IMG/VR virus record: IMGVR_UViG_3300021961_011438
Span: 1-24,160 of that record
Reading direction: 5' to 3' (one strand)
Length of the DNA stretch: 24,160 nucleotides
From: a virus
In this document: piece by piece, positions 3,884-23,959 of the stretch
How positions within the stretch are numbered: position 1 is the first letter of the stretch
Layout: the number at the start of each line of letters is the position of its first letter
Program-made: the position numbers and the translations under genes
The notes under the pieces: generated by a model
What the model was told of the DNA's origin: nothing
The model's input: only the letters and a program-made list of their open reading frames with translations
Databases searched by the model: none

Positions 3884-4601
3884 CGGCTACATTGGGAGAG
3901 AATGGCGACGTTGCCATCGGTTTAATGTCGATTACATTGCCACTAATGGTTAGTGTGATATTCCCCTGTAAGAAGTTACCCTTTTCTCCACTAACATTTT
4001 GGCTAACATTTGTCTGGAATCCTAAACCGCCGCGCTGTCCCATGTAGATAATTTCGAGATAAATTCGCGCACCTTTTTGCTCTGCAGCCTTAATGATTTC
4101 ATAACCAGGATCGCCAAATACAACCGCACCCGATACCGATCCGGTACTCATAATCTCGGAGATGAATTTTTCAACCGCAATTTCGGTGAAAACACTATCA
4201 CTTACCTCAGTAGTAGAAGTATCAACGTTAAAGGTTTTTGCACTTATAAGCGGAACCCAAGATTTAAGCGTGCATTTTTGCGCGGGGGTAGCAAGGGATG
4301 CGGCAACTTTAGCAGGCTCGATCTGAATTGCTGTCTGAGTGGCTGTGGTTTTTGTCCGAACCACAACGTAGTCGCTACTACTAGCACCGAGATAAATAAG
4401 AGTACCGGGGTAAAGGATTCTACCAAATCCCCCCGTAGCCACAGTGAGGGTCGTGTCACCCAAGACAACCGCGGCAGCTAAATCGGCTTCTCGCGTCGGA
4501 GGATCTTCTCCAAACCCGTAAACACCCGATATGAAAAATCTTGTATCACGGGACGGTGTGAGGTTGTCACTCCGATTCAACTCTAAAATCTGATTACTCA
4601 T
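3870..4601 (-). CDS. major tail protein (tail tube subunit)
   Basis: A 243-residue protein beginning MSNQILELNRSD. I chose the ATG at 4601; an in-frame GTG lies at 4610 and would add MIR. The sequence is Thr/Val/Gly/Ala-rich and largely beta, with the layout of siphophage tube proteins. A conserved-looking stretch VPLISAKTFNVDTSTTEVSD is followed by a mid-protein helix and a C-terminal beta region (FLQGNITLTISGN). It sits between the tail terminator candidate and the chaperone, exactly where the tube subunit is expected. Function comes from order plus composition; no catalytic residues are expected. The leader contains an inverted repeat (4614-4650) that may regulate this highly expressed product. 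Confidence 0.75.
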   Translation of the reverse strand: MSNQILELNRSDNLTPSRDTRFFISGVYGFGEDPPTREADLAAAVVLGDTTLTVATGGFGRILYPGTLIYLGASSSDYVVVRTKTTATQTAIQIEPAKVAASLATPAQKCTLKSWVPLISAKTFNVDTSTTEVSDSVFTEIAVEKFISEIMSTGSVSGAVVFGDPGYEIIKAAEQKGARIYLEIIYMGQRGGLGFQTNVSQNVSGEKGNFLQGNITLTISGNVIDIKPMATSPFSPNVADDLN

Positions 4602-6254: not shown

Positions 6255-6977
6255 CTAATTGTCACAGACTACCCGGAAGCCATAGTTAAAATCTGAGACA
6301 CGGTGATGGAGACAGCCTCGGTAGCTGCAATAGCAGTTAATCACATCGTTAACCCAAGAGCCACCCCGACGCACGACAATATCTTTGTAAGATTTATTGC
6401 TAGTTTCTGTCCAAGCACTGCCATCTGTCGGCGCACCGTCATAGCTATCGTGCCAAGTATCAGCGCACCACTCCCAAACATTACCAATCATGTCATATAA
6501 TCCCCAATTGTTAGGCCGTTTTAATCCTACAGGATGAGTTCTTTCCTGAGAATTTCTGTAATACTAAGCGTAGTCTCCTAACTCATTAGCATCATTGCCA
6601 TAATAAAAGCGAGTAGTAGTCCCTGCCCGACAAGCATACTCCCATTCGGCTTCCGTCGGTAGGCGATAGGTTTTGCCGGTTATTTGACTTAATTTCTGAC
6701 AAAAAGCTTGAGCATCGTTCCAACTAACATTTTCTACCGGATTTTGAGGATTATTTGAAAAATGAGAGGGATTTATTCCCATTACTGCTTCATATTGTGC
6801 CTGAGTCACTGGATATTTTCCAATCGCAAAACTTATAAGGTAAACCTTGTTGCAAGGTTTTTCATCTTTGGGATGGTTGCAATCTAAAGACAAAGTACCC
6901 ATCAAAAAGTTTCCTGTTGGCACGATTATCATTTCTAATGCGACCTGATTAGGCAAGGTTTCAGTAAATTGGTTCAT
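6255..6977 (-). pseudogene. formylglycine-generating-enzyme-like (SUMF1/C-type lectin fold) protein, interrupted by an amber codon
   Basis: Two open stretches (6977-6564 and 6563-6255) lie in the same frame and join across one TAG at 6564-6566, codon 138. Before it come PTGNFLMGT, YPVTQAQYEAVMG, NPVENVSWNDAQAFC and RLPTEAEWEYACRAGTTT. After it come WGLYDMIGNVWEWC, RRGGSWVNDVINCYCSYR and YGFRVVCDN. Together these are all the landmarks of the FGE-sulfatase domain, 240 codons long. Homologues normally read DYAWYY at the break, so TAG most likely arose from TGG. An AGGAG site precedes the ATG. Cyanobacterial FGE-like proteins serve as modifying enzymes, ligand-binding domains or targets of diversity-generating retroelements. 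The C-terminal composition favours the last (see findings). The downstream part could restart at the ATG at 6491 but would lack the N-terminal half of the fold. Confidence 0.8.
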
Positions 6978-7009
6978 TTCTTACTCCTAAGTGTTTTGTT
7001 TTTGACGGA

Positions 7010-7046
7010 TGATAGCTGATAACTGATAACTGACTACTGATTACTG
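7010..7046. repeat. heptamer tandem repeat (TGATAAC/TGATTAC type)
   Basis: About five consecutive seven-base units (variants TGATAGC, TGATAAC, TGACTAC, TGATTAC) sit between the broken small gene and the FGE-like gene. Same family as at 6231. Confidence 0.75.
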
Positions 7047-7350: not shown

Positions 7351-7377
7351 TGATTACTGATAACTGATAACTGATTA
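7351..7377. repeat. heptamer tandem repeat (TGATAAC/TGATTAC type)
   Basis: Nearly four units of the seven-base repeat. Its end overlaps the stop codon of the 48-residue gene, which suggests the repeat has grown into the 3' end of that gene. Confidence 0.7.
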
Positions 7378-7521
7378 TAACGCCGGATATTTGTCTAGCA
7401 CTGTTTGTGCTTCCTGATTTAAAGATTGAGCAAATAACTCAATCTCTTTGCAGAAAATTCGAGCCTTTTTAATTTCAGGTGGAGTTTGCGTTGTTTCGAT
7501 TAGTTGTTTGACGTTATCCAT
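7375..7521 (-). CDS. small hypothetical protein (48 residues) with its own repeated-type promoter
   Basis: The ATG at 7521 has GAGGACACAAG upstream, the same leader as the larger cassette genes, and the promoter at 7557-7585 fits at the correct distance. The product begins MDNVKQLIETTQTPPEIKKA and is mainly helical and charged. It is not recognised. The promoter and ribosome binding site make it a real gene despite its size. Confidence 0.65.
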   Translation of the reverse strand: MDNVKQLIETTQTPPEIKKARIFCKEIELFAQSLNQEAQTVLDKYPAL

Positions 7522-7556: not shown

Positions 7557-7621
7557 ATCTTACGATATTCTCCCAGAAATGTCAACTATCTGGGAGAATT
7601 ATTTTTCTGAACGTTTGTACT
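7557..7621 (-). promoter_or_regulatory. repeated cassette promoter, copy 1 (drives the gene at 7521)
   Basis: Minus strand: -35 TTGACA (7585-7580), 17-base spacer, -10 TAAGAT (7562-7557). Nine-base arms ATTCTCCCA (7599-7591) and TGGGAGAAT (7575-7567) flank the -35. A GTAC-N4-GTTC box (AGTACAAACGTTCA, 7621-7608) lies upstream. Confidence 0.8.
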
Positions 7622-7640
7622 ACTGATAACTGATAACTGG
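7622..7640. repeat. heptamer tandem repeat, short
   Basis: Two and a half units (ACTGATAACTGATAACTGG) lie between copy 1 of the repeated promoter and the end of the coiled-coil gene. Confidence 0.6.
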
Positions 7641-7643
7641 TAT

Positions 7644-8699
7644 TTAACTAATCTCTATATCATTAGCATCAGCAAAATCGTTAATGTCCATAAACCAGTC
7701 TTCCCAGTCATCGGGGTCAGACAGATTGACTTTATCCATTGACCAGTGTCCTAGCTGTAAATATAGCCCTGCCTTCCACTTATCAGGATATGGATACAAC
7801 TGATTCTCTTTTTCGGTATCAGTAGGGGTGAGGATAAACTGGAGAATATCTTTCCCCCACTTGCCTTTTTTGACGCTATAGAAGCAGGATAAGGCATTAA
7901 TGAGGTCGTCGCACTCCTGCTGGTAGTCAGCAAAGTTCTCAGGGAGTGTAAATTTGGGTCGCTTTTTAGCCGTCCGTTTAGGTTTTGGTTGAGGCTCTGA
8001 TTGATTTTTTAGTTGCTTATTTTCCTGTTCTAATTCGTGGATACGAATGTGTAACTGAGTAACAGATTCGTTTAAGACTGTTATCTGATTTGTTTTTTGT
8101 TGCAGTAGATAAACCGCACATTCTAAATCGTGAACTCGTTGTTTTAGGCTGTCAATCCATGCTTCGTTGTATTCTTTACTCTGTTCTAATTCTTGATTTT
8201 TTTTCTCCAGAATTTCATTTTTTGTTTCTAGTTCCTCAACTAATTCGTTTAGGGTAGAAGCTTCGGTATTTAATCGAGGTGATTGAGGTATTAAACTAAT
8301 AGTCCAATCATCCAGTCCAGAAGACTCAGGTTCACCTAACAGTATATTGACAAGCGCAACTTGTCGTTTTTCAGAAAACGATAACTCGTCATCGGTCTTT
8401 AATTCATTTTCCTGATTTTCTGGAAGGGTGTATTCACAATCATCTAGGTAATCCCAAAGATCGTAACAATTGCGAGACTTGTAATCTTCTTGACTAAAGT
8501 TTTCTAGTGCGTCAAAAAGCTTCTGAGTGTCATAGTCAGCTAAATAAACACCTCGATTTTTAATCGTAACGTAATCGTCATTATCAGTCACTGATAATAT
8601 TCCGTGGTTCCCTTCAAAGTATCTTTGGTTAATTTGATCGAGATTGTTCTCAATACGTTTAATAATTGTCGATCTTTCGTAAAATTCGATGGAAGTCAT
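7644..8699 (-). CDS. coiled-coil accessory protein sharing a domain with its neighbour
   Basis: A 351-residue protein. The start is the ATG at 8699: it follows GAGGACACAAATC, and the upstream ATG at 8762 lies inside the promoter. Residues about 1-95 contain LFDALENFSQEDYKSRNCYD and LWDYLDDCEYT, closely matched in the gene at 8795-9331. Residues about 150-235 are a long coiled coil (leucine heptads, Gln/Glu-rich). A basic PKPKRTAKKRPKF linker is followed by a C-terminal domain of about 100 residues rich in Trp and Asp (WEDWFMDINDFADANDIE). No catalytic motif is recognised. The paired paralogue and separate identical promoters suggest co-regulated early or stress-induced phage proteins, but this is inference. 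Confidence 0.7.
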   Translation of the reverse strand: MTSIEFYERSTIIKRIENNLDQINQRYFEGNHGILSVTDNDDYVTIKNRGVYLADYDTQKLFDALENFSQEDYKSRNCYDLWDYLDDCEYTLPENQENELKTDDELSFSEKRQVALVNILLGEPESSGLDDWTISLIPQSPRLNTEASTLNELVEELETKNEILEKKNQELEQSKEYNEAWIDSLKQRVHDLECAVYLLQQKTNQITVLNESVTQLHIRIHELEQENKQLKNQSEPQPKPKRTAKKRPKFTLPENFADYQQECDDLINALSCFYSVKKGKWGKDILQFILTPTDTEKENQLYPYPDKWKAGLYLQLGHWSMDKVNLSDPDDWEDWFMDINDFADANDIEIS

Positions 8700-8733
8700 G
8701 ATTTGTGTCCTCGTGTTTTGTTTGCCTAGATTT

Positions 8734-8796
8734 ATCTTACAAGATTCTCCCATAAAAGTCAATAGATTGGGAGAATTATTTCTGAACAGGTGTACT
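8734..8796 (-). promoter_or_regulatory. repeated cassette promoter, copy 2 (drives the gene at 8699)
   Basis: Minus strand: -35 TTGACT (8762-8757), 17-base spacer, -10 TAAGAT (8739-8734). Arms ATTCTCCCA (8776-8768) and TGGGAGAAT (8752-8744). Upstream box AGTACACCTGTTCA (8796-8783), which begins at the stop codon of the previous gene. Confidence 0.8.
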
Positions 8797-9331
8797 AATA
8801 TGAGTAATAAAACTCATCTACTTTTTGAGGTGTAATACCAGCATCATAAATGCGTCGGCGAATATCAATTGCGTCACCTTTGGCACTTAATCCGTAAAAT
8901 TTGCATAACTTACGAAGTTCACCCCAAGACAATTTATACAGTCGTCTTTTAAGACGACTGTAATCGTCGTCATACTCCGTTTCCTCGCTGATAGTTTGGC
9001 TGTCTTGTTTTGTAGAGTTTTCTAGAATGCCACTAACTTCTGGAGTATATTCGCAATCTCGAAGGTAATCAAAAAGATCATAGTAGCCGCCGTTGTCAAA
9101 ATCTTCATCGGTATAATTACATAAAGCATCCAAGAGCGACGGAACATGGTATTCAACCCCATCAATTGTCGCCACTAATAAATCGCTCAAGCGATTAACC
9201 GATATTTCTGAATGAAAAGTGGCACTAAAAGAATTGTTTATGATTAATTCCATGCGGGACTCAATTTCTTTAGCAAGTTCACCTACAGTGAGATCGGAGA
9301 ACAATTCATCAAACCATTTATGGTTAGCCAT
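8795..9331 (-). CDS. SAP-domain accessory protein, paralogue of the coiled-coil gene
   Basis: A 178-residue protein with a GAGAGG ribosome binding site before the ATG at 9331. Residues about 60-110 (PSLLDALCNYTDEDFDNGGY then YDLFDYLRDCEYT) match the N-terminal domain of the gene at 7644-8699. The C-terminal 45 residues (LSWGELRKLCKFYGLSAKG then DAIDIRRRIYDAGI) have the helix-extended-helix pattern of a SAP domain, which usually binds DNA or RNA. This suggests a nucleic-acid-bound protein with a shared partner-binding domain. The stop TAG forms part of the next promoter's upstream box, so gene and promoter form a tight cassette. Confidence 0.7.
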   Translation of the reverse strand: MANHKWFDELFSDLTVGELAKEIESRMELIINNSFSATFHSEISVNRLSDLLVATIDGVEYHVPSLLDALCNYTDEDFDNGGYYDLFDYLRDCEYTPEVSGILENSTKQDSQTISEETEYDDDYSRLKRRLYKLSWGELRKLCKFYGLSAKGDAIDIRRRIYDAGITPQKVDEFYYSY

Positions 9332-9364
9332 GTTTAGTACCTCTCGTGTTTTGCTTACATTTCT

Positions 9365-9427
9365 AATGTATCTGATTCTCCCAATAAAGTCAATAGATTG
9401 GGTGAATTATTTTTGAACGTTTGTACT
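9365..9427 (-). promoter_or_regulatory. repeated cassette promoter, copy 3 (drives the gene at 9331)
   Basis: Minus strand: -35 TTGACT (9393-9388), 17-base spacer, -10 TACATT (9370-9365). The arms are ATTCACCCA and TGGGAGAAT, one mismatch from the other copies. Upstream box AGTACAAACGTTCA (9427-9414). Confidence 0.75.
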
Positions 9428-9808
9428 ACTACGTCTTTGTTTGTAGCGTTGATGCTGAGATCGTTTTCTTTTGGGATCAAGTTCTCGGTGTTCCAAACAA
9501 TACCCAGAACTGTTACGGCTATTAAGTGCCGTAAACTTACCTATGGCTAGGCAAGCGACACAGTATTTAGTTTCAGGGATACTTACTTCTACAGAGAAAT
9601 TAATCCCTTTTATCTTAGGCTGTTTATCACAGATTAAAGCCACTCTTGTTAAGGCTATGCCAGATAGAGAGTAATCTTGTAATTTAATTAAGTTAGTGTC
9701 GATATTGTCGATATTGTCGATTTTTTGAACAGAAGATTTTAAAACTTCAAAATCTTCTGACTTGAGAGATAGGATTAGGATCATCGTAGTATTTATTGGT
9801 GTTAACAT
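9407..9808 (-). CDS. hypothetical protein with a CxxC...CxxH zinc-ribbon-like motif
   Basis: A 133-residue frame. The C-terminal half holds YCVACLAIGKFTALNSRNSS and GYCLEHRELDPKRKRSQ: Cys-x2-Cys, then Cys-x2-His about 20 residues later, then a basic tail. That pattern resembles a small zinc-binding module as in HNH-type or phage zinc-ribbon proteins. The N-terminal part contains a repeat from a nine-base tandem (GTCGATATT, 9699-9722) giving IDNIDNID. The start is uncertain: a hairpin sits directly before the ATG at 9808, and a second ATG lies at 9784. Its 3' end runs through promoter copy 3, whereas most cassette genes stop at its edge, so a shift or extension at the 3' end is possible. Confidence 0.5.
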   Translation of the reverse strand: MLTPINTTMILILSLKSEDFEVLKSSVQKIDNIDNIDTNLIKLQDYSLSGIALTRVALICDKQPKIKGINFSVEVSIPETKYCVACLAIGKFTALNSRNSSGYCLEHRELDPKRKRSQHQRYKQRRSSTNVQK

Positions 9809-9809
9809 G

Positions 9810-9831
9810 AAACGGGGAATTATCCCCGTTT
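9810..9831. terminator. bidirectional hairpin terminator
   Basis: Perfect eight-base arms AAACGGGG and CCCCGTTT with a six-base loop, followed by a short T-run on both strands. It separates the frameshifted gene from the zinc-ribbon-like gene. Confidence 0.6.
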
Positions 9832-9837
9832 TGACTT

Positions 9838-10221
9838 ACCAAATGCTGTAAAAGTGATAACCACCTTTTATGGCCTCTACGCCGCTAAAATGGGCGTTAT
9901 TGTGTTTGTAAGCGTCGTATATTTCTTTTTCCGTCGGCAACTCTAGAGACAAATCAACTAAAGCCGTCACACTGTACAGCGTGTCGTGGCATCCGTGGCT
10001 AAACTCCCCGCAGGAACCATAACCAGTTCCGAGACATAGATAGTGGTGTAGTCTAAAATGTCGTGGTGAATATGTCCGTGTTTTGCCTGAATAGCTTTTG
10101 CTATAAAACTAGCAATCGTGTGACTTCCCCAATGCCATCCGTGATTGCCAATATAGCCATCTTCGTAGATACGAAGTTCTTTTGCTTTAAACTTCTTAAA
10201 CCCGACTTGTTCTGTGTTCAT
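9838..10221 (-). pseudogene. frameshifted hypothetical gene
   Basis: From the ATG at 10221, preceded by AGGAGG, the frame reads sensibly (MNTEQVGFKKFKAKELRIYE, then GYIGNHGWHWGSHTIASFI) through about residue 58. It then ends in an unlikely tail at a TGA (9967). In the -1 frame a coding-like stretch starts at about 10050 and continues to a TAA near 9838: LCLGTGYGSCGEFSHGCHD, then VDLSLELPTEKEIYDAYK and GGYHFYSIW. Joining the two gives one protein of about 125 residues, so the gene carries an indel near 10030-10060. No family is recognised. I see no slippery heptamer at the junction, so a mutation or sequencing error is more likely than programmed frameshifting. Confidence 0.55.
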
Positions 10222-10276
10222 GGTATCCTCCTAAATAATAAATTAAATTAAGCAGTTTACTGACTTGCTTGGGTGA

Positions 10277-10630
10277 CTAAAATTTAAAAGTGATAAATTG
10301 TTCTAAGTGTTTGTTTTCCAAATCACGGAACTGTATTTGCTGTAAAGCGATATTCTCCGCTTCTTTATCAATCACAAAAGCGTTAATCATCTCGATGTCG
10401 GGAGATTTCTGATTAGCGATAACAGAAGCATAATATTCTAAATCTCCACTGATAATGTCATAGCGTTCACCAACTTTTTTATTATCAGCTTTTTTGAGGA
10501 TAACAGGGCGAATAAGTCCACCCATTTCAATAATAAGATTGGCTAAATTATCTAATTTAGTTTCGGAGAAGGTTTCTCTGGGAAGGGAAGGATTAATATC
10601 AGTAATATCAACTTGTAAAAATTTCCACAT
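10277..10630 (-). CDS. ParB/Srx-fold nuclease-like domain protein
   Basis: A 117-residue protein with the ParB N-terminal pattern: LQVDITDINPS, a helix LDNLANLIIEMGGLIRPVIL, then YDIISGDLEYYASVIA in the place of the usual GERR-x-RA motif. The family's Arg pair is replaced by Asp-Leu-Glu, so CTP or nuclease function is doubtful. There is no HTH or C-terminal dimer domain, so it is a stand-alone ParB-like domain as found in phages, not a complete partition protein. Promoter copy 4 lies upstream, and CAGGAGTTAAATAA serves as the ribosome binding site. Possible roles are DNA binding or modification; partition is less likely. Confidence 0.65.
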   Translation of the reverse strand: MWKFLQVDITDINPSLPRETFSETKLDNLANLIIEMGGLIRPVILKKADNKKVGERYDIISGDLEYYASVIANQKSPDIEMINAFVIDKEAENIALQQIQFRDLENKHLEQFITFKF

Positions 10631-10663
10631 TTATTTAACTCCTGAAATTGTGTGTCTAGACTT

Positions 10664-10726
10664 ATCTTACAATATTCTCCCAAAAATGTCAACTATTTGG
10701 GAGAATTATTTTTGAACGTTTGTACT
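10664..10726 (-). promoter_or_regulatory. repeated cassette promoter, copy 4 (drives the ParB-like gene)
   Basis: Minus strand: -35 TTGACA (10692-10687), 17-base spacer, -10 TAAGAT (10669-10664). The arms extend to 11 bases here (ATTCTCCCAAA / TTTGGGAGAAT). Upstream box AGTACAAACGTTCA (10726-10713). Confidence 0.8.
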
Positions 10727-11528
10727 ATTCAACGTTAAGCTCTTCTACAAGTTTGACGTATTCCTCGTACGTCGCTGAAAACCAATTGTCTCCAGCCATT
10801 TTTTCGACAAGATAGCAAGCATAAAGGGGCATTCCAGATTCTCGCATTTTTTTTGCAAGAGACCAAATCAGGCACGCCATGTCATTGTCGTCATCACCTA
10901 AAAACTTATCTCCGTCAAACCAGTCAGGAAACATTGGCTTAACTAATGCAATTTGTTCGGCTGTTACAACAGGCAGTTGAATTACATTTGATTTATTTTT
11001 AACTTCAGGTGTAGTTACTGTTGTAATTGCAGGTTTAGCGTTAACAGGCAATTGAATTACATTTGATTTATTTTCAGATTCGGATGCAGTTACTAGATCA
11101 GACAAAGCGGTATCAACCACGGGTTTATTGATAATTTCTGGACTTTTTAATCGAGAGTCCTTTTTCTGCTCATAATATCCGTCAGGAAGTATACTAAAAT
11201 ACTCATTGTCGGCAATTTTTGCAGTAATCTTCCAATCGTCCCCAGACATTTCTTTTATCTCTTGTAAATTAGATCTATAATCGGCATTCTCTACTTGAAT
11301 TACTGTATTGTTAGGATCGACGTAATCAATGTATCCTTTGTAATTATGATACTTTTTAGCAACTGCTTTAACTTCTGACATGGTATAGGAAGAACCGACT
11401 ATAGCTGCAACAGTAACAATGATCAACGAACCTGTTTTAGATTTGCCCATTCTGCAAGTCTTTACAGAAAACTTTAATTCTGGGAATGTTTGAGATAGTT
11501 CTTTTTTGAGTTGGTGTGATTTAGCCAT
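10725..11528 (-). CDS. LPD29-like N-terminal domain protein with internal KSNVIQLPV repeats
   Basis: A 267-residue protein. Residues about 5-75 (LKKELSQTFPELKFSVKT, then YTMSEVKAVAKKYHNYKGY) resemble LPD29, a domain found in large polyvalent phage/plasmid proteins, and match the start of the next gene upstream. The middle is a low-complexity linker with KSNVIQLPV twice (about residues 155 and 180). The C-terminal 80 residues (MFPDWFDGDKFLGDDDNDMA then LIWSLAKKMRESGMPLYACY) form a helical, acidic domain. The ATG follows ACGAGGACACAAACC. It has its own copy of the repeated promoter. Function is unknown; the sequence suggests a nucleoid- or defence-related phage accessory protein. Confidence 0.65.
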   Translation of the reverse strand: MAKSHQLKKELSQTFPELKFSVKTCRMGKSKTGSLIIVTVAAIVGSSYTMSEVKAVAKKYHNYKGYIDYVDPNNTVIQVENADYRSNLQEIKEMSGDDWKITAKIADNEYFSILPDGYYEQKKDSRLKSPEIINKPVVDTALSDLVTASESENKSNVIQLPVNAKPAITTVTTPEVKNKSNVIQLPVVTAEQIALVKPMFPDWFDGDKFLGDDDNDMACLIWSLAKKMRESGMPLYACYLVEKMAGDNWFSATYEEYVKLVEELNVE

Positions 11529-11564
11529 GGTTTGTGTCCTCGTGTGTTTTGTTTGTCTAGATTT

Positions 11565-11628
11565 ATCTTACGATATTCTCCCAATAAAGTCAAGTATATG
11601 GGAGAATCTTTTTTTGAACAGGTGTACT
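11565..11628 (-). promoter_or_regulatory. repeated cassette promoter, copy 5 (drives the gene at 11528)
   Basis: Minus strand: -35 TTGACT (11593-11588), 17-base spacer, -10 TAAGAT (11570-11565). The arms are ATTCTCCCA and TGGGAGAAT. Upstream box AGTACACCTGTTCA (11628-11615) overlaps the stop TAG of the gene ahead. Confidence 0.8.
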
Positions 11629-12454
11629 AGGCGGCTAAAAGGATAGAACCGATGTACTCACAGACAGAATGAACCTTAGAAGTTTGGTTTTGTTTTAAAT
11701 TCTTAATTGTTTTTGCGCGTCTATATTGATTGTAGTAATCGTTAATGTCTGGTATCTCAAAAGAGAGATTTAACGCTAGTTCGCCAGTTTCGGACTTAAG
11801 GACTATTTGTTTGTCGGTAATCTCAATTTGAGCGTCCTTAAATTTAGACTCAAGGAATTTGATTGTTGTTTTTTCTGGTTTTTTACAAAACTCGTCTTTT
11901 TTAATCACGGGAGCATCAACTGATTTTAATTGGCTGATTTCCTTCTTAACTTCTACTGGTTTCTTTTGAATTGGTTCTGATTGTTCAATACCTGATTCTA
12001 TTTTTAAGATTTCTAAAACTAATTTAGCTTTATTCCGATTACCTTTGGTAATCGATAATTGGGCATTTAGGCGAGTTAGTTTAATCTGTAGTTTAGCTAT
12101 TTTGTTTTGCGGGGTAACTTCTTTGACTGTTCTAACTACAGTGTTATCGATGGCTTCTTCTTTGGTTTCTTGAATTGTTTCAATTACAGGGTTATCAATT
12201 TCTTCTTTGGTTTCTTCATCAGCATTGACAATAACATTAGTGTCACCAGTAACTGTTTGCCAATCCCAGTTGTGATATTTATTAGTGATTTCTTTTATCT
12301 CCGCTATTGTATAATCAGAATCTTTTAATCCTTTGATAGTTACTGCAATTTCAGTAATATTACCTTTACAAACCATTTTGGTTTTTACAGAAAACTTCAG
12401 TCCCGAAAATGCTTGAGTTAATTCCTTTTTTAATTCTTGTCCTTTGGTAGTCAT
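11627..12454 (-). CDS. LPD29-like N-terminal domain protein, paralogue of the next cassette
   Basis: A 275-residue protein. Residues 1-70 (ELKKELTQAFSGLKFSVKTK, then YTIAEIKEITNKYHNW) align with the gene at 10725-11528. A Glu/Thr-rich linker (about 85-110) follows, then a basic helical part (IAKLQIKLTRLNAQLSITK) and a C-terminal domain ending YYNQYRRAKTIKNL...VCEYIGSILLAA. The two paralogues share only the N-terminal domain and differ completely beyond it, which suggests domain shuffling behind a common N-terminus. The ATG at 12454 follows AAGGATCAAGACA. Promoter copy 6 precedes it. No enzyme motif is seen. Confidence 0.65.
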   Translation of the reverse strand: MTTKGQELKKELTQAFSGLKFSVKTKMVCKGNITEIAVTIKGLKDSDYTIAEIKEITNKYHNWDWQTVTGDTNVIVNADEETKEEIDNPVIETIQETKEEAIDNTVVRTVKEVTPQNKIAKLQIKLTRLNAQLSITKGNRNKAKLVLEILKIESGIEQSEPIQKKPVEVKKEISQLKSVDAPVIKKDEFCKKPEKTTIKFLESKFKDAQIEITDKQIVLKSETGELALNLSFEIPDINDYYNQYRRAKTIKNLKQNQTSKVHSVCEYIGSILLAA

Positions 12455-12488
12455 TGTCTTGATCCTTGCGTGTTTTGCTTACATTTTT

Positions 12489-12551
12489 ATTATGGATCGT
12501 TCTCCCAATAAAGTCAACTATCTGGGATAATCTTTTTTGAACGTTTGTACT
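12489..12551 (-). promoter_or_regulatory. repeated cassette promoter, copy 6 (drives the gene at 12454)
   Basis: Minus strand: -35 TTGACT (12517-12512), 17-base spacer, -10 CATAAT (12494-12489). The arms are weaker (ATTATCCCA / TGGGAGAAC). Upstream box AGTACAAACGTTCA (12551-12538). This is the first copy of the array in transcription order. Confidence 0.75.
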
Positions 12552-13016
12552 AAGTATATTTACTCGTTATCATTGTAGATAGATTGTAGATAGGGTGATC
12601 GACAACCGAAACCGTTACCCCGTAAAGGTTCTAGACTTTGTAGATAATGTCAATGCACTATAGAGGAAAAAAGAAGAAAGATAGAACAATAAACCAGACT
12701 GGACAATAAAAAACCGCAAGAGATAAACAAAGTCAACAGTAAAGCTGTTAGTTTGTATCTCGATTGTAGATAAGGTTATCTACAATCGAAAACCTTACAG
12801 GGTATAGGTTTCGAGGTTTGTTTATCTTGTCGATACTCTATACAGGGAAGAGAAAAGATAGAGAGAGATAAACGAACTGGACAATAAGAAAAGGATAAAA
12901 AATCTTGGCACGGGAAAATAGATCAACAATATAAACAAAGTCTAGAATCTATATATATCAATGCTTTTCAATGTTGATCACCTTATCTACAATCTATTTA
13001 CAAACCAACAAACTAT
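12552..13016. repeat. noncoding AT-rich region: degenerate 180-bp tandem duplication plus palindromic element
   Basis: No gene is supported here. Two related blocks (about 12565-12745 and 12755-12930) each contain GATTGTAGATA-RGGTNATCNACAA, then an AAACC/AGGTT part, then ACTGGACAATAA. The second block holds a perfect 28-base palindrome at 12761-12788 with 13-base arms CGATTGTAGATAA. A third element at 12925-13013 has AACAATATAAACAAAG, TATATATATCAA and CTACAATCTATTTACAA. It recurs in the same internal order at 13919-14003 and, inverted, at 23827-23912 and 23960-24085. It resembles replication-origin or segregation DNA rather than a gene. Confidence 0.6.
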
Positions 13017-13062: not shown

Positions 13063-13767
13063 TTACCGTTTTTTATCGTTCCGCATAAGCATTCGACCGC
13101 CTCGCCATCCCCGTGCTTTTTCCCGTTCGGTTTCGAGTAGGTTGAATTTGGCTATGTCTCGCTCTTTTTCGGCGTGTAGCTCTTCGATAACCAGACGCTT
13201 ATAGTCAATCATTGAGTTTTTACTGCTAAAGTCAGCGATCATAGTCTTTTGAGTTTTGATCAACTCCTCTAGTATTTGCTTTTCTTCGCTTAGTTTGACG
13301 ATTTGGCTCTCAAGTTGCCTTACTTCTGTAATTGCCTCGCTCTTGACGCGAAAACCAGCTAAGGTGTGAAGGAATAATCGGACTCCTAACTTAAGCACTT
13401 GAGAGGTTAACTCAGGATTATCCTTTGGCAACCACTTACAGATTAGGTCTTCTGGGATTAAATAAACCCCTTGCAACCCGCCCTCTGTTTGAATTTGAGC
13501 CTGCTTTAGTAATCCTAAGCCTAACCCTTTTGTGTTACCCCCTTGTAATCCGCTCCCTGCCTGAATTTGAGGGTGATTTGGAGATTCAGAAGTTACCCCC
13601 TTGCCATCTTCTTTAGACAGCCGGTTTAATCGCATAATGATGGCGTTGTGACTTTTCCCAGACATCCGTGCGTATCCCTTGATCGATGCGAAGCTTTCAC
13701 CAGTCTGGGTATCGATTATCAGTTCAATACCATCTTGATCAAATCGTTGTAAACTAGAAACAGCCAT
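13063..13767 (-). CDS. antirepressor-like protein, paralogue of the gene at 22537
   Basis: A 234-residue protein. The first 45 residues (SSLQRFDQDGIELIIDTQTG then ESFASIKGYARMSGKSHNAI) are almost identical to those of the gene at 22537-23217. They resemble the helix-turn-helix/BRO-type start of cyanobacterial plasmid and phage regulators. A central Gly/Gln-rich region contains an internal duplication (HPQIQAGSGLQGG and KQAQIQTEGGLQG). After a helical segment, residues about 150-215 are a coiled coil, and the basic C-terminus reads GWRGGRMLMRNDKKR. AAGGAGTCAAT precedes the ATG. The promoter has an extended -10 and a 5' hairpin like the paralogue's. It may bind DNA as an antirepressor or replication-related regulator. 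Confidence 0.65.
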   Translation of the reverse strand: MAVSSLQRFDQDGIELIIDTQTGESFASIKGYARMSGKSHNAIIMRLNRLSKEDGKGVTSESPNHPQIQAGSGLQGGNTKGLGLGLLKQAQIQTEGGLQGVYLIPEDLICKWLPKDNPELTSQVLKLGVRLFLHTLAGFRVKSEAITEVRQLESQIVKLSEEKQILEELIKTQKTMIADFSSKNSMIDYKRLVIEELHAEKERDIAKFNLLETEREKARGWRGGRMLMRNDKKR

Positions 13768-13918: not shown

Positions 13919-14003
13919 TAACAAAGATAACAAACTAATAAAACCTATATATATCAATACTTTTCACTGTCAATACCCTTGCTAACAATCTGGTAACAAT
14001 ATT
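13919..14003. repeat. AT-rich palindromic repeat element, copy
   Basis: Contains AACAAAG, TATATATATCAATAC, CTTTTCACTGTCAATACCC and GCTAACAATCTGGTAACAA in the same order as the element at 12925-13013. It lies just before the terminator of the next operon. Confidence 0.6.
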
Positions 14004-14684: not shown

Positions 14685-14757
14685 TTGATTTGTCCTTTTG
14701 TGTGTTTTGTTTATATTTTTATAGTAGATCGATTTTCTTGATAGGTGTTGGTCAAGT

Positions 14758-14787
14758 GTGACAGTTTATCAAGTGACACTGCGGGTA
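14758..14787. repeat. 30-bp direct repeat, left copy
   Basis: Reads GTGACAGTTTATCAAGTGAC then ACTGCGGGTA. It matches 15075-15104 at 27 of 30 bases. The two copies flank the structured region and are 317 bases apart. Confidence 0.7.
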
Positions 14788-14799
14788 TCATTGAAAATA

Positions 14800-15025: not shown

Positions 15026-15074
15026 TGTCCATATTCTAAATATATCATGATAATTTTCAGATAGTTGGCGAAGA

Positions 15075-15104
15075 GTGACGGTTTATCAAGTGTCACTGCG
15101 TGTA
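15075..15104. repeat. 30-bp direct repeat, right copy
   Basis: Matches 14758-14787 except for three substitutions. It includes GTTTATCAAGTG and a near-palindromic AGTGTCACT, so it may be a protein-binding site. Confidence 0.7.
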
Positions 15105-15339
15105 CTTTTGTACTGGACTGATTGAATATCCGATTTATTACTGATTTTCAGTATATTTGGTTGTTTTACGTTCGTTCTCGTTGATTATTGATACTGAGAA
15201 TATTGTTAAGCATTTTTAACTATCATAAAGGTTTTTTCCTTTAGAACAATTTAATTTTGTCGGTTTATTTTTTGGTTGCACGGCACAAAAGCTGTCATTT
15301 TGGCATAATATTGATTAATCGAGATTATATCTTAATTTA
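15105..15339. other. intergenic region before the terminase genes
   Basis: AT-rich leader with a palindrome TACTGA-TTT-TCAGTA (about 15136-15150) and a hairpin AAAGG-TTTTTT-CCTTT (about 15227-15242). I see no clear -35/-10 pair with correct spacing for terS. GGCATAATATTG near 15305 is a possible -10 only. Confidence 0.4.
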
Positions 15340-16029
15340 ATGCCAAGACGAAAAAAAGCATCACCAAATAACTCAACCTCGACACCTAAAAGTCCTGTGT
15401 CAGGCAAAGTTAGTCGGTTTGATAATCTAATACCAAACTCACCTATCGAGTTTGGTCACTATCCTATCTGGGAAAGACAGCCTTGCGAAATGTCTCAATG
15501 GTTTGAAAAATTTCAAGCTTTTTACATTCATCTTCCTGCGGGGTACAGAACATTAAATCGTGCTTTCAATGATTGCGCTACGTCGGCAGGCGAGGAGATT
15601 CCAAAGACTGAAAGTAAGCGCAATATTACCGCACCAGAACAATGGCAATTAGCTTATAAAATGTATCGATGGGAGGATCGAGCTAAGGCGTATTGGCTTA
15701 AAAAGATACAAGATCAAGAGGCTTATAGAAATGAAATCCTAAACCAAATAATAGATAAAAGCATAAAGAATGCTTTTAAAACACTCGAAAAAAGCGAGGA
15801 GATAAACAATCGTTCACTGGACGATCCTAACGGCAATTGGAGTCATAAAGACGCTGTAATTATGACTAAAGCTGTCACTGAAATAGTAGAAAAAGCATTA
15901 GGGCTTGACACTGTAGAATATGCTATTAGTATTTTACAAAAAAATGGGTTAAAAGCAATTGATCCTGACGGGAACTTAATAGGACAGCCAACAGATAAGG
16001 GTAATTCAGAAGATGAAACTATCTTATAA
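15340..16029 (+). CDS. terS: terminase small subunit (TerS-like)
   Basis: A 229-residue protein directly before terL, overlapping it by 17 bases in another frame. It has a basic, Pro/Ser-rich N-terminal tail (MPRRKKASPNNSTSTPK), then PEQWQLAYKMYRWEDRAKAY, a pattern common in small terminase subunits of cyanobacterial and other siphophages, and a helical C-terminal half. Its role is to recognise the packaging site and recruit the large subunit. Pairing with the large subunit makes the call secure in function, less so in sequence. No good Shine-Dalgarno sequence is seen upstream, and translation may be leader-poor. Confidence 0.75.
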   Translation: MPRRKKASPNNSTSTPKSPVSGKVSRFDNLIPNSPIEFGHYPIWERQPCEMSQWFEKFQAFYIHLPAGYRTLNRAFNDCATSAGEEIPKTESKRNITAPEQWQLAYKMYRWEDRAKAYWLKKIQDQEAYRNEILNQIIDKSIKNAFKTLEKSEEINNRSLDDPNGNWSHKDAVIMTKAVTEIVEKALGLDTVEYAISILQKNGLKAIDPDGNLIGQPTDKGNSEDETIL

Positions 16030-18889
16030 AAATCTCTCAAAGATAAAAACAGCAACCGAAAAATATCGACTTGTTAACACCAAAGAAGAAATTGTTTTTC
16101 CTCAATTACAAGAGGGAAAACAAGCTTTATTTGGAACAATTGATGCTGATGTAATCTTCTATGGCGGAGGCGCAGGAAGTGGAAAAGCAGGACGTGCATC
16201 CAAGACAGGAAAAGCGATTCGAGATAAAATGCTTTCTATGGCGGATGCGCTTTTAGGGAAAAAACTATTATCATATAATAGTAGTTTTAATGAATCGCAA
16301 ATGAAAGATTCAAAGGTCTTGGGATGGAGTGGTCAATGGATTGACTTCTCTGATCTTAAAGTCGGGGATAAGATTATGAATCCTGATGGCCAGTATCAAG
16401 AAATCATCCAAATTCATGAACAGGGATTCAAACAATTTTATCGGGTTTCTTTTGAAGACGGTACAAGTACAGAATGCTGTGGTGATCATTTATGGTCTTT
16501 TTGGGAATCTCGCCGTAATAGCCGCAGGAAGTCTAGTAATGGGATTAATCGAATTGAGTCGAATCTGACACCTCGAGGATGGAATACTAATTACATTACA
16601 AGAGCAAGGGTTAAGGATACTAATTGGTTGATTACTGAAATTAGTAAAGGAAGACGATTTATTATTCCAATTAACGCGCCATTGCAATTTACGGCACTCA
16701 ACAGGTCTGATACTGGCAGAGCCTATTTTTATGGTTGTTTAATAGGTGATGGTTCTTATTGTAGTGATTCAATTGTCGTAACAACTTCTGATAAGTTTAT
16801 TGCTGATAAACTTGTTGATATTTTAGGGAAAGAAGCTACTGTTAAAACACGAACACCAATAAAAGATGACCGCTTAGAAGTTTTATCCGTCAATGCGACA
16901 AAAGTTCAATGGGTTAAATCTTGGATAAGCAACAATGAATATAAAGGAAAAAGAGCGTGGGAAAAAGTATTTCCCGACGGCTATTTATCAGCATCTCTTG
17001 ATTTTCGTTATGCGTTTGCTCAAGGTCTTTTTGATACAGATGGAACTGTTGGAGATAAAAAAAGAGAAGTCTCCTATTGCACAACCAGTAAAGATTTGGC
17101 TATTCAGGTAGCTTCTTTGGTTCGTTCTTTGGGTTATATGGCTAAGATTACGGAAAGACAACCAAAATATAGATACAAAGGGGAACATTTAGATGGTCGT
17201 ACGGCTTACGTTGTGGCTGTTGAGGGAAATCATCTTGAATTACTTTTTAGTTTGCCGCGTAAAGTTAAACGAGCGAAAATACTTGGACAATTCAATGGAG
17301 GATCAAGTTGGCCGGGTAAAAGAATTGTTTCTATTGAACCAACTGAAATTGATTACGCTCGTTGTATTACTGTTAGTAATCCAAATCATCTTTATTTAAC
17401 AGACGATTATATAGTTACGCATAATAGCTTCGCATTATTAGCCGATTTTGCCCGTCAAGAATTTGTCAGCAATCCTGACTATCGGGCTGTTATTTTTCGC
17501 CGGACTTACCCTGAATTTACTCAAGCGGGCGGTTTAATAGATGAAAGCCAAAAAATCTATCAGGCAATAAAAGGCAATTTTATCGAAAAACCTCCGGGGT
17601 GGCGATTTCCATCTGGATCAAAAATAGCTTTTAGGCATTTACAATACGAAAAAACTGTCTATGTTTATCAAGGGGGGCAAATTGCAAAAATAGGTTTTGA
17701 TGAATTGACTCACTTTACAGAAGAGCAGTTTTTCTATCTTCTCTCTAGAAACCGATCTGTATCAGGGATTAAACCAGCAGTTAGAGCAACTTGTAACCCT
17801 GACGCTGACTCTTGGGTAGCTAGTTTTATCTCTTGGTGGATCGACCCTAAAACTGGGTATGCTATCGAGGAAAGAGCGGGAATAGTTAAATATTTTATTA
17901 GGCAAGGGGGCGCGGTTCATTGGGCTGACAGTAAACAAGAATTAATTGATAAGTTTAGTCTTAAAGATGAACTTTTTGATATTATCCCTGATGATAAAAA
18001 AGAAAAGTTTTTATCAGATACAGATGTAAATATTACACCAGATAAACTGATCAAAAGTTTTACTTTTATTCCTGCTACAATCTTTGATAATCCAGCTTTA
18101 ATTAGAGTTAACCCTACCTATTTGGCTAACCTTTACGCTTTACATCCTATTGAGCGGGAAAGACTTCTCAGGGGTAATTGGAAGATTAAATATGAATCTG
18201 GCACTGTATTTGATCGGACTTGGTTTGAGATACTCGATAAAGTACCCGATGATTGGAGACTAATAGGTAAGGTGAGGTTTTGGGATTTAGCGGCAACTGC
18301 TAAAGAGAATGCTGAAAACTATCACTGTTATACCAGTGGCACTCTTGTTTATAAGTATCAAAGAATTAAAAATACACTGCCAGATTCAACTGAGATTAAA
18401 GAATTTGCTTATGTGATTGCTGATAATATCTGTGAGCAGAAAAAGGTCGGGGAAGTGGAGTTAATGCTCAAAAATACTGCTGAATTAGATGGTAGAACCG
18501 TAGCCGTAAGATGGGAACAGGAAGGGGGATCGAGCGGTAAATTTGTTGAAAATACGATTACTAATGTAATTAGGGAAAACCACCCGAACCATGATGTTAG
18601 AGCTATCGCACCTCAAGGGGATAAACTCACTAGGGCTTTACCCGTAGCAACGGCGGCTAGTAGAGGACAAGTCTTTATCTTGAGAGATGGGATATGGAAT
18701 ACTCGATTTTTAAATGCTTGTCAGGGTTTTGATGGCAGTAAAAAAACACCCCCGACTAACGATATTGTGGATAGCTTATCAGGGGCTTTCTATTCTCTTG
18801 AAAATGAGTTTCAGGGACATGAGGAGGTTATTAGTGCGATTGTTACTAATATTCCCATTAATCGGTTTAGGGGCGGTTTTAGTCGCTAG
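16013..18889 (+). CDS. terL: terminase large subunit with an in-frame intein
   Basis: A 958-residue precursor. The Walker A motif GGGAGSGK (residues 51-58) is cut immediately after its Lys by a 413-residue intein (59-471). The next extein residue, Ser472, completes GSGKS. Downstream are the ATPase Walker B region IGFDEL with the following FTEEQFFYLLSR, and a nuclease domain with acidic residues in RFWDLAAT, WEQEGGSSGK and TNDIVDSLSGAF. Spliced, the protein would be 545 residues, a normal TerL length. It cuts and packages DNA with TerS. It needs splicing to rebuild the ATP-binding loop, so intein activity controls packaging. The gene converges with the 62-residue gene on the other strand. Confidence 0.9.
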   Translation: MKLSYKNLSKIKTATEKYRLVNTKEEIVFPQLQEGKQALFGTIDADVIFYGGGAGSGKAGRASKTGKAIRDKMLSMADALLGKKLLSYNSSFNESQMKDSKVLGWSGQWIDFSDLKVGDKIMNPDGQYQEIIQIHEQGFKQFYRVSFEDGTSTECCGDHLWSFWESRRNSRRKSSNGINRIESNLTPRGWNTNYITRARVKDTNWLITEISKGRRFIIPINAPLQFTALNRSDTGRAYFYGCLIGDGSYCSDSIVVTTSDKFIADKLVDILGKEATVKTRTPIKDDRLEVLSVNATKVQWVKSWISNNEYKGKRAWEKVFPDGYLSASLDFRYAFAQGLFDTDGTVGDKKREVSYCTTSKDLAIQVASLVRSLGYMAKITERQPKYRYKGEHLDGRTAYVVAVEGNHLELLFSLPRKVKRAKILGQFNGGSSWPGKRIVSIEPTEIDYARCITVSNPNHLYLTDDYIVTHNSFALLADFARQEFVSNPDYRAVIFRRTYPEFTQAGGLIDESQKIYQAIKGNFIEKPPGWRFPSGSKIAFRHLQYEKTVYVYQGGQIAKIGFDELTHFTEEQFFYLLSRNRSVSGIKPAVRATCNPDADSWVASFISWWIDPKTGYAIEERAGIVKYFIRQGGAVHWADSKQELIDKFSLKDELFDIIPDDKKEKFLSDTDVNITPDKLIKSFTFIPATIFDNPALIRVNPTYLANLYALHPIERERLLRGNWKIKYESGTVFDRTWFEILDKVPDDWRLIGKVRFWDLAATAKENAENYHCYTSGTLVYKYQRIKNTLPDSTEIKEFAYVIADNICEQKKVGEVELMLKNTAELDGRTVAVRWEQEGGSSGKFVENTITNVIRENHPNHDVRAIAPQGDKLTRALPVATAASRGQVFILRDGIWNTRFLNACQGFDGSKKTPPTNDIVDSLSGAFYSLENEFQGHEEVISAIVTNIPINRFRGGFSR
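16187..17425 (+). other. class 3 (WCT) intein with LAGLIDADG homing endonuclease domain, inside terL
   Basis: The intein spans Ala59 to Asn471 of the precursor. Its N-terminal residue is Ala, not Cys or Ser. The C-terminal end is VTHN followed by Ser. Residues matching the class 3 WCT triad are visible: Trp161 in block B (GDHLW), Cys451 at the block F position (YARCITV) and Thr469 before His470-Asn471 in block G. The endonuclease part carries two LAGLIDADG motifs, YGCLIGDGSY (about 240-249) and AQGLFDTDGTV (about 336-346), both with their acidic residue, so it may be active. Class 3 inteins were described in mycobacteriophage terminases and DnaB. A 35-residue insertion between Ala59 and the first Hint strand (SKVLGWSGQW) is unusual. 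Confidence 0.85.
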
Positions 18890-19095: not shown

Positions 19096-19374
19096 CTAAT
19101 CGATTTGATTTACTAGGGATTCTCGGTAAAGTCTTTCACGCTCTATCCAGAAACGAGCAGAAGGTACGCCTAAAGCTAACTCCATTTTGTAGGCAATACG
19201 GATAGTAATTTCTGCTTTACCTTTTATGATTTGATTGATAGTCTTTTTTGGCAACCCCATTCGATTGGCAAATTCAGTTCTAGTTATTTTTCTTTCCTTT
19301 AGGATGCCAGCAAGGGTTTCTCCTGGTGGAGAAACCCAATCGGGTGTAAATCTGTTCTCAATAGTATTAGTCAT
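19096..19374 (-). CDS. higA: HigA-family antitoxin (XRE-type HTH)
   Basis: A 92-residue protein with the HigA signature: PPGETLAGILKERKITRTEF, the helix-turn-helix RMGLPKKTINQIIKGKAEIT and the following LGVPSARFWIERERLYRE. Its ATG lies three bases after the stop of the preceding gene, so translation is coupled. The usual partner, a HigB RelE-fold RNase of about 90-100 residues, is absent next to it. Its neighbours are a dioxygenase-like protein and a 62-residue protein instead. It may repress the operon and neutralise an unusual partner. Confidence 0.8.
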   Translation of the reverse strand: MTNTIENRFTPDWVSPPGETLAGILKERKITRTEFANRMGLPKKTINQIIKGKAEITIRIAYKMELALGVPSARFWIERERLYRESLVNQID

Positions 19375-20482: not shown

Positions 20483-20516
20483 TACTGATATCTGATAACT
20501 GATTACTGATAACTGA
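20483..20516. repeat. heptamer tandem repeat (TGATAAC type)
   Basis: Five near-perfect seven-base units between the two DUF6876-like genes. Confidence 0.75.
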
Positions 20517-20519
20517 GAA

Positions 20520-20858: not shown

Positions 20859-20880
20859 GATTTTAGTCTCCTAAATAATT

Positions 20881-20930
20881 GTTAGCTGACAACTGATTAC
20901 TGATAACTGATTACCGATAACTAATAACTG
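20881..20930. repeat. heptamer tandem repeat (TGATAAC/TGATTAC type), longest array
   Basis: About seven units with substitutions (TGACAAC, TGATTAC, TGATAAC, CGATAAC). It is the longest array of the family in the window. Confidence 0.8.
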
Positions 20931-20934
20931 CTAT

Positions 20935-21784: not shown

Positions 21785-21839
21785 ATATTACAATCATACT
21801 TGTAATATTGTCAAGGGGTATTCCAAAAAAAGTTATAAT
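21785..21839. promoter_or_regulatory. divergent promoters with a shared palindromic operator
   Basis: Operator ATATTACAA-TCATAC-TTGTAATAT (21785-21808). For the minus operon: -35 TTGACA (21814-21809), 18-base spacer filled by the operator, -10 TAATAT (21790-21785). For the plus gene: -10 TATAAT at 21834-21839, 25 bases beyond the operator. Confidence 0.7.
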
Positions 21840-21867
21840 AAATATATCGAGTGCAAAAACTAATACA

Positions 21868-22071
21868 ATGGTACTAAAAAACAGGGTCAAGGAATTTACG
21901 GAGAACAAAGGTATTACGATTTACAAGTTTGCTAAAGATGTAGGCATATCCTTTAATACGGGGTATAGATTATCAAATGATCCGACTCACTTACCCTCTA
22001 TTACTGTCTTAGAAGCAATCTGTGATTATTATAAGGTCGATCCTAACGAAATTATCTATCGCATTGATTGA
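21868..22071 (+). CDS. Cro/CI-type HTH regulator
   Basis: A 67-residue protein that is essentially one helix-turn-helix domain: FTENKGITIYKFAKDVGISF then NTGYRLSNDPTHLPSITVLE, ending DPNEIIYRID. I chose the ATG at 21868 because the in-frame ATG at 21808 lies upstream of the -10 (21834-21839) and inside the operator. The gene divides two divergent transcription units and probably represses both through the palindrome at 21785-21808, as Cro/CI switches do. It is too short to include an oligomerisation or cleavage domain. Confidence 0.8.
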   Translation: MVLKNRVKEFTENKGITIYKFAKDVGISFNTGYRLSNDPTHLPSITVLEAICDYYKVDPNEIIYRID

Positions 22072-22168: not shown

Positions 22169-22462
22169 TTAAACAAAATCCCAATTAAGAGAATTATTAA
22201 ATTCTTGTATATCAGCAAGGGCTTTTTCCCCTGATTGGGTAATCCGATAGTATCTTTTTCTAGCACCGCCTCTATCGTTAGATCGCTCGGTTCCCCATCG
22301 GGATTTAATGAGTTCTTTTTCCTCTAATTTCTGGAATACAGAGTAAAACAAGCCAATATCAAGGCTTTTACCTTTAATATCAGCTATAGATTGAATTATC
22401 TGCAATCCTGATAATTCTTTATTGTAAAGAGTCCGCAAAACAAGGATTTCTTTAGGTCTCAT
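22169..22462 (-). CDS. PadR-family transcriptional regulator
   Basis: A 97-residue winged-helix protein: MRPKEILVLRTLYNKELSGL, LQIIQSIADIKGKSL, then SVFQKLEEKELIKSRWG and ARKRYYRITQSGEKALADI. The KRYYRIT-x-x-G wing is the PadR signature. It lies divergent to the antirepressor-like gene at 22537, with overlapping -10 regions (TATTAT on minus, TATAAT on plus), so it may control that gene and itself. The leader is very short. Confidence 0.8.
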   Translation of the reverse strand: MRPKEILVLRTLYNKELSGLQIIQSIADIKGKSLDIGLFYSVFQKLEEKELIKSRWGTERSNDRGGARKRYYRITQSGEKALADIQEFNNSLNWDFV

Positions 22463-23217: not shown

Positions 23218-23303
23218 CTGGGTCTATCGTGTTTCAATTGCGAAAACTCTACCCTAGAGGAACAAATCGAGTTAATGGGGGGATATTAGGCAAAAGCAGT
23301 AAA
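23218..23303 (+). pseudogene. remnant of a duplicated higA 3' end
   Basis: Bases 23259-23303 repeat 23594-23639 with one indel. The frame ends EEQIELMGGY before TAG, the same as the end of the HigA gene that follows. The N-terminal HTH part is missing here, so this is a leftover from a tandem duplication or deletion. Confidence 0.65.
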
Positions 23304-23624: not shown

Positions 23625-23689
23625 GCAAAAAGCAGTAAATAAAGTTATTTACTGCTAAAATAAAAGGTACTTGAAATTGACATCATAAT

Positions 23690-23821: not shown

Positions 23822-23826
23822 GCTAG

Positions 23827-23912
23827 TTTGTTAGATTGTAAATAGATTGTAGATAAAGGTATTTACAATAGAATCCTTGATATATATAGATTTCAGACTT
23901 TGTTTATATTGT
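23827..23912. repeat. AT-rich palindromic repeat element, inverted copy
   Basis: Read on the minus strand it gives AACAATATAAACAAAGTCT, TATATATATCAA, ACCTTTATCTACAATC and TATTTACAATCTAACAA, in the same order as at 12925-13013. TTGTAGATAA...TATTTACAA forms an imperfect palindrome. Confidence 0.65.
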
Positions 23913-23959
23913 TATCCCTATCCCTGTGTCAGGATTTTTTGTGTTTTTATTGCTGACCT

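Follow-up and report, generated by a model that had tools for sequence, protein, structure and literature searches.

Six promoter-operator units and the genes behind them

A 24,160-base fragment from an uncultured virus (IMG/VR record IMGVR_UViG_3300021961_011438), referred to here as the window, carries six copies of a composite promoter-operator unit, all of which are read on the minus strand. These units share one anatomy, are repeated before different genes, and are the places at which upstream contexts and genes have been re-paired among related viruses. The −35 and −10 elements of the six copies span nucleotides 7557-7585, 8734-8762, 9365-9393, 10664-10692, 11565-11593 and 12489-12517. 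An initial annotation of this DNA described six promoters that combine a TTGACW hexamer with a spacer of exactly 17 bases, and this description holds for all six copies (TTGACA in two, TTGACT in four). The TAAGAT-like −10 element it proposed is found as TAAGAT in four copies, but is replaced by TACATT at 9365 and by CATAAT at 12489.

Each −35 hexamer lies at the center of a dyad, ATTCTCCCA-N15-TGGGAGAAT, with arms of 9 base pairs. Both arms are exact in four copies, as had been noted for the whole set, but one or two changes are present in the copy at 9365, which has the left arm ATTCACCCA, and in the copy at 12489, which has the arms ATTATCCCA and TGGGAGAAC. An additional element that was previously overlooked, the outer box TAGTACANNYGTTCA, precedes the left arm of every copy by 6-8 bases, and the window contains exactly six occurrences of the sequence AGTACANNNGYTCA, each of them upstream of a left arm. 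If the transcription start is placed by reference to the −10 element, the outer box (TAGTACANNYGYTCA) is centered near −62 and the dyad near −33, with the arms at approximately −45 and −21, and an A-rich, UP-like stretch separates the box from the dyad. The leader AAACAAAACACGAGGACACAA, previously presented as common to several copies, is exact in two of the six, is interrupted by a 2-base insertion in one other, and is partial in the remaining copies.

The six sites score between 50 and 66 with a 47-column weight matrix, whereas no other site in the window exceeds −13 and 200 dinucleotide shuffles reach −3.5 at most; the six sites themselves belong to the set behind the matrix, and the values thus describe separation and are not an independent test. 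Pattern-based estimates of chance occurrence were also made for the six sites, and the copies are not a product of chance. A scan of the window revealed no terminator-like site adjoining the six units.

The genes of the array are likewise encoded on the minus strand and are described here in the direction of transcription. Copy 1 (12489-12552; TTGACT, 17-base spacer, CATAAT), whose distal box TAGTACAAACGTTCA occupies 12552-12538, precedes cassette gene 1 (11627-12454, 275 amino acids). Its product has a weak LPD29-like N-terminal domain followed by a NKIAKLQIKLTRLNAQL module that is N-terminal in related cassette genes, and its stop codon is the TAG of copy 2 (11565-11629; box TAGTACACCTGTTCA, exact arms, TTGACT/TAAGAT). 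Cassette gene 2 (10725-11528, 267 amino acids) also has an LPD29-like N-terminus (E value 8e-6, 26.9 bits relative to a cut-off of 27), and in both genes the match is weak and under the curated cut-off. Copy 3 (10664-10727; exact arms, TTGACA/TAAGAT) is followed by cassette gene 3a (10277-10630, 117 amino acids), which consists of a ParB N-terminal domain alone (PF02195, E value 5e-9), by cassette gene 3b (9967-10221, 84 amino acids), and by gene 3c (9407-9808, 133 amino acids), which is kept in all related large phages. A 160-bp stretch of this DNA (10121-10279) is ~86% identical to Microcystis phage MaMV-CH01.

Gene 3c extends into copy 4 (9365-9428; TTGACT/TACATT) and ends at its TAA. Cassette gene 4 (8795-9331, 178 amino acids) encodes an acidic protein that has an N-terminal module in common with the product of gene 5, and its stop codon is the TAG of copy 5 (8734-8797; exact arms, TTGACT/TAAGAT). 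Cassette gene 5 (7644-8699, 351 amino acids) encodes another acidic protein, with a family isoelectric point (pI) of ~4.7, whose predicted structure comprises a globular N-terminus, a long coiled coil and a C-terminal alpha/beta part; it matches no known family above threshold. Copy 6 (7557-7622; exact arms, TTGACA/TAAGAT) is followed by a 48-codon open reading frame (7375-7521) that belongs to family D2 of related loci, and then by an FGE-sulfatase-domain gene (6255-6977) that is split into frames 6564-6977 and 6255-6491. Genes of this FGE type are shared with all lineage-B phages (see below). Longer homologues of the gene at 6255-6977 exist in related phages. The possibility that a diversity-generating retroelement targets the FGE gene was rejected, as no reverse transcriptase was found.

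The view that each promoter serves a single accessory gene therefore requires modification, because the promoter at 10664 heads three genes and the promoter at 7557 heads the 48-codon frame and the split FGE-type gene. Similarly, the coincidence of promoter edge and stop codon at 8795, 10725 and 11627 is real, with each stop falling at the TAG of the element, but the same arrangement is seen in only 8 of 146 related copies when frames of at least 80 codons ending at this TAG are counted. Profile searches of family libraries gave no family for array genes other than 1, 2 and 3a. Among the related loci, family D1 is acidic (mean pI 4.7) and has a long predicted coiled coil. Structure prediction was poor for the two commonest cassette families (predicted template modeling score of 0.31 in both cases), and the model of the first family had no fold-search match below an E value of 0.1. 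PADLOC and Pfam matches of the coiled-coil protein look like coiled-coil artefacts. A role for the cassette genes in early takeover or counter-defence would be a guess drawn from the analogy to accessory genes of other phages.

Distribution of the unit and exchange of genes

A search of IMG/VR with the dyad pattern returned 96 stretches, and ~146 distinct units with enough flanking sequence were collected at 67 loci. The invariance of CCCA and TGGG in this collection is imposed by the search pattern. Beyond these demanded bases, the right arm is 96-100% conserved except at its last base, and the left arm is 89-99% conserved. The AGTACA and G.TCA positions of the box are nearly invariant, and the distance from box to CCCA is 11 in 125 of 139 units. 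The gap between box and dyad varies by 1-2 bp, the N15 between the arms is invariant, and the −10 element and leader are more variable than the arms, N15 and box. Large phage records carry from one to six units, which never differ in strand inside a given record, and scans of these records gave no further matches above a score of 16. Rather than occurring equally at non-promoter positions, 143 of the 146 units are followed by a reading frame that begins at a nearly fixed distance, at a median of 30 bases past the end of the matrix, as expected from the initial annotation.

When the box was used as the starting point of the search, a strict dyad accompanied 94 of 112 matches; three of the other 18 are coding matches and the rest are slightly altered units. 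Since the box-first matches outside coding sequence carry the dyad, the two elements travel together. One unit used as a blastn query had no meaningful match among named phages and plasmids, and the strict pattern was absent from the 84,980 genomes scanned. Among 390 cyanobacterial genomes, 16 have dyad matches with one mismatch, a number comparable to that of a reversed control and thus at chance level, and the promoter unit was not seen in those contexts that were inspected. The unit is restricted to phages. Two other queries, the variant arms of contig L025 (see below) and the short box alone, were discarded because they led to unrelated places, apparently coding for the former. We found no earlier description of the composite element.

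Evidence for gene exchange comes from related phage records. Genes flanking the array are mostly in common between the window and G002, G003, G005, G008, G009, G010 and the fragment G016, and G007 joins these records in a separate comparison. Across seven phages, the flanking core proteins are syntenic and mostly 80-97% identical in amino acid sequence, and the array genes are variable. One upstream context, the end of the 133-amino-acid gene, precedes families D1, D8, D6 and D2, and family D1 in turn is found behind at least five upstream contexts. In pairs of loci with a common context and different genes, similarity is ~88% upstream and declines to background beyond the leader, whereas in pairs with a common gene and different contexts it is no higher than background upstream and increases at the box; the downstream columns of these pairwise profiles are blurred by insertions and deletions. 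These data bear out the proposal of a cassette array in which genes are swapped behind a common switch.

Individual columns of the unit agree with this pattern. In the box, the three most informative columns share 0.2-0.3 of their entropy with the upstream context and a similar fraction with the gene; the −10 and leader columns share mostly 0.15-0.38 with the downstream gene and less with the context, and the dyad columns carry little information on either. It is therefore probable, from these comparisons, that crossovers fall inside the promoter unit. Homogenization of units within a record was set aside as an explanation, because the identity within records (0.796) compared with that of shuffled sets (0.782) is too weak an effect to build on.

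A second promoter type at 14686-14790 (minus strand) shares the −10 surroundings and leader of the array units but has another upstream control region, in which neither dyad nor box is found. The same type is present in L063, L072, L086 and L189, which suggests that the switch itself may also be exchanged. Near this promoter are direct repeats at 14747-14787 and 15064-15104, and the repeat GTTGG..GTTTATCAAGTG.CACTGC is seen again ahead of the divergent gene at 15340.

The close relative G002 encodes NblA, a protein that degrades phycobilisomes, and a phycobilisome-bearing cyanobacterium is therefore the expected host. The assignment of the virus as a cyanophage is thus supported, and, given the ~86% identity of the 160-bp array stretch to Microcystis phages, a Microcystis host would be likely. 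A query of genomes with the FGE-type gene returned only distant cyanobacteria and other bacteria, and so did not yield a host name.

Other repeats are present in the window. A separate family (TTGTAGATAGATTGTAGATAAGG and relatives) occurs in both orientations at 12573-13015, 13924-13999 and 23824-24065, where its members surround the paralogous genes 13063-13767 and 22537-23217. A perfect 37-bp direct repeat is found at 23259-23295 and 23594-23630, with the second copy overlapping the end of a helix-turn-helix (HTH) gene (23328-23624), and short intergenic repeats of the TGATAAC type are located, for example, at 7009-7041, 20485-20519 and 20879-20931.

Regulation and candidate readers of the unit

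The interpretation that we regard as fairly probable is that the units are portable promoter-operator joints in a phage, probably a lytic one, of a phycobilisome-bearing freshwater cyanobacterium. Each unit would be read in the order outer box, A-rich UP-like stretch, dyad on a near-consensus −35, 17-bp spacer, −10 and leader. Host RNA polymerase carrying SigA would use this promoter strongly, and a dimeric or tetrameric protein occupying both arms would mask the −35 in every unit until a particular stage or state of the host is reached. With crossovers occurring inside the unit by homology, a gene gained in this manner would come already under the control of the unit.

The presence of an operator is suggested by the geometry of the dyad on the −35, by the conserved arms and spacing, and by a paired arm change in L025. 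In that contig, the unit at 4221-4280 has both arms changed symmetrically to ATTAACCCA/TGGGTTAAT, and the other units have the usual arms. Repression would be the simplest effect of a bound protein because the −35 is already near consensus, and common repression of all copies is plausible. The earlier suggestion that one repressor could serve every promoter is consistent with a dyad that covers the −35 and with the symmetric switch. Within the window, HTH proteins encoded at 19096-19374, 21808-22071 and 22169-22462 would be candidates for such a binding protein.

Several observations weigh against the interpretation of the units as operator-bearing joints. The symmetric arm switch is a single case, the arms are 24 bp apart from center to center, which is wide for an ordinary HTH dimer, and the greater variation of the left arm relative to the right indicates unequal constraint on the two. 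Some of the 67 loci share a contig, and related sequences cannot be counted as independent. Moreover, upstream context and gene are correlated, the box columns also track the gene, and the linkage gradient does not cleanly separate the two; because of this correlation, the column information is read as support, and not proof, for crossovers within the unit. No protein that binds the unit was identified, and the search for phage recombinases was not exhaustive.

Whether the phage supplies the regulator is a separate matter. The initial annotation regarded the array as a phage-encoded regulon, and this is unsupported as stated. Two unrelated phage lineages, A and B, both carry the unit, yet the lineage-B records G001, G012 and G014 have only FGE-type genes in common with lineage A, and no recovered DNA-binding protein is shared. 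G004 and G013 have a few more genes in common with lineage A, with one HTH protein in G004, and the HTH_3 domain was not detected in G001. The lineage-B records may be incomplete, which could hide a regulator gene. The reader may therefore be a host protein, lineage B may have another reader or none, or the records may be incomplete. A lysogeny repressor was rejected as a candidate because no S24-type repressor was found in 13 phage records and no tyrosine integrase in 14, and control of lysogeny is unlikely.

The absence of a shared DNA-binding protein from the three lineage-B records leaves room for a host protein, for example a LexA-type regulator of stress or DNA damage that acts on the outer box and allows the phages to sense host state. 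We consider this alternative unlikely, although several features fit it. No LexA-type repressor domain (Peptidase_S24) is present in 13 phage records, half of the outer boxes contain a GTAC-N4-GTTC core, and the 1-2 bp variation in the gap to the dyad would permit the box to act alone. The cyanobacterial LexA consensus is AGTACWNWTGTACT or RGTACNNNDGTWCB (PMC3091678), and the best box variants score 13-14 compared with a median of 14.3 for the published sites. However, the median box scores only 8.3, its final position is A without exception and so never fits the T (or B) of the published consensus, and GCTC is present in half of the boxes. Predicted Microcystis LexA sites look different, the dyad is not above chance in the 390 cyanobacterial genomes, and the possible incompleteness of the lineage-B records noted above also counts against a host-supplied reader. 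A more elaborate form of this proposal, in which host proteins read the unit as a composite switch, one of them bound to the dyad and another, of stress type, to the outer box, seems to us distinctly unlikely. Under it, the unit would be a common socket of unrelated cyanophage lineages, and a gene placed behind it would follow host state with no regulator encoded by the phage.

LexA-like sequences are also found outside the units. A near-palindrome, AGTACAAAAGTACA, is located at 15101-15114, between divergent genes and upstream of the one at 15340. The lineage-B contig L107 (G001) has perfect or near-perfect GTACACTTGTAC-type palindromes at ~4185, 6769-6782, 6871 and 7082, and these fit the LexA consensus better than do the array boxes.

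Strong constitutive early promoters that are kept alike by recombination, with a dyad and box that have no regulator, might also account for the good −35, the 17-bp spacing and the A-rich stretch at the position of an UP element. Ma-LMM01 promoters of all classes are reported as SigA-like (PMC5780444). This explanation is doubtful, in that the −10 element is less conserved than the box, the arms of the dyad and their exact N15, the spacer bases beside the arms vary freely where the arms do not, and one symmetric arm switch is known.

We consider it highly improbable that the box or dyad is a site at which a dedicated recombinase moves cassettes, as in an integron. The sharp upstream edge at TAGTACA and the cassette-like junctions would suit such a site, but tyrosine integrase (PF00589) was absent from the 14 phage records searched, although a very diverged member could escape detection, and a resolvase-type gene occurs only in lineage B. 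In addition, information shifts gradually across the unit and not at one point, and each unit includes a full promoter. A DNA or RNA hairpin (terminator, cruciform or single-strand promoter) formed by the arms is scarcely credible, since, even though four of the six copies clearly beat shuffled sequences in single-strand folding (z approximately −4 to −5, with two weaker), the stem is not followed by a T run, its loop of up to 15 bases contains the −35, a mismatch in one arm is seldom matched in the other, and the dyad lies upstream of its own transcript.

If the units are indeed portable joints of the kind favored here, a regulatory element doubles as a joint for gene exchange, with more than 100 sequenced variants, in phages that are not recognizably T4-like. 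A search for the element alone collects a catalogue of uncharacterized cyanophage accessory genes. The findings also pose a testable question, which is whether a control element common to phages that lack a common regulator gene has a reader supplied by the host.

Comparison with known regulatory and exchange systems

Several phage elements resemble the unit in part. In SPbeta, the SPBRE element is likewise a short sequence that recurs at the promoters of numerous phage genes whose function is unknown, but it is a 15-bp motif that is read by the prophage repressor MrpR, a protein with a tyrosine-recombinase fold (PMC10516654), whereas tyrosine recombinases (PF00589) were not found in the 14 records examined here. 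In cluster K mycobacteriophages, some genes are immediately preceded by conserved repeats with an inverted repeat (PMC3203893). The SAS repeats are 13 bp long and lie at the translation start, and the ESAS are 17-bp inverted repeats with a variable spacer (PMC3203893), in contrast to the 9-bp inverted repeat with fixed N15 that surrounds the −35 of the present unit. The outer box shares its GTAC-N4-GTTC core with cyanobacterial LexA boxes (PMC3091678) but differs in its constant terminal A, its frequent GCTC, its position near −62, and in that no phage LexA was found. Microcystis phage Ma-LMM01 also has SigA-type promoters, but in the part of that report consulted only SigA-like motifs, and none that are phage-specific, are described (PMC5780444). 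Integron-like cassette arrays differ from the present one in that no tyrosine integrase is present in the 14 phages.

Among named phages, the terminase is nearest to that of Aphanizomenon phage CL131 (40%), few virion genes could be named, and one conserved protein has no match. The terminase large subunit gene of the window (16013-18889) contains a LAGLIDADG intein and is of equal length in G002 and G005; the subunits of G003, G009 and G010 are ~550 amino acids long and lack the intein.

The closest parallel in concept is with PeSLs (promoter early stem-loops), which were reportedly described in T4-type phages by Arbiol in 2010 and Comeau in 2014, two studies that are cited in PMC4503421. PeSLs are short promoter-bearing repeats that precede accessory genes and provide homology joints for shuffling between related phages. 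Here, too, a promoter lies inside the repeated unit before variable genes, and comparative evidence indicates that gene modules are exchanged through the homology of the unit. However, our element combines promoter and operator in one unit, with an outer box as well as the dyad that surrounds the −35, and it has no stem-loop terminator. The units therefore work like PeSLs as joints, yet they are a different element and are not filed as PeSLs.

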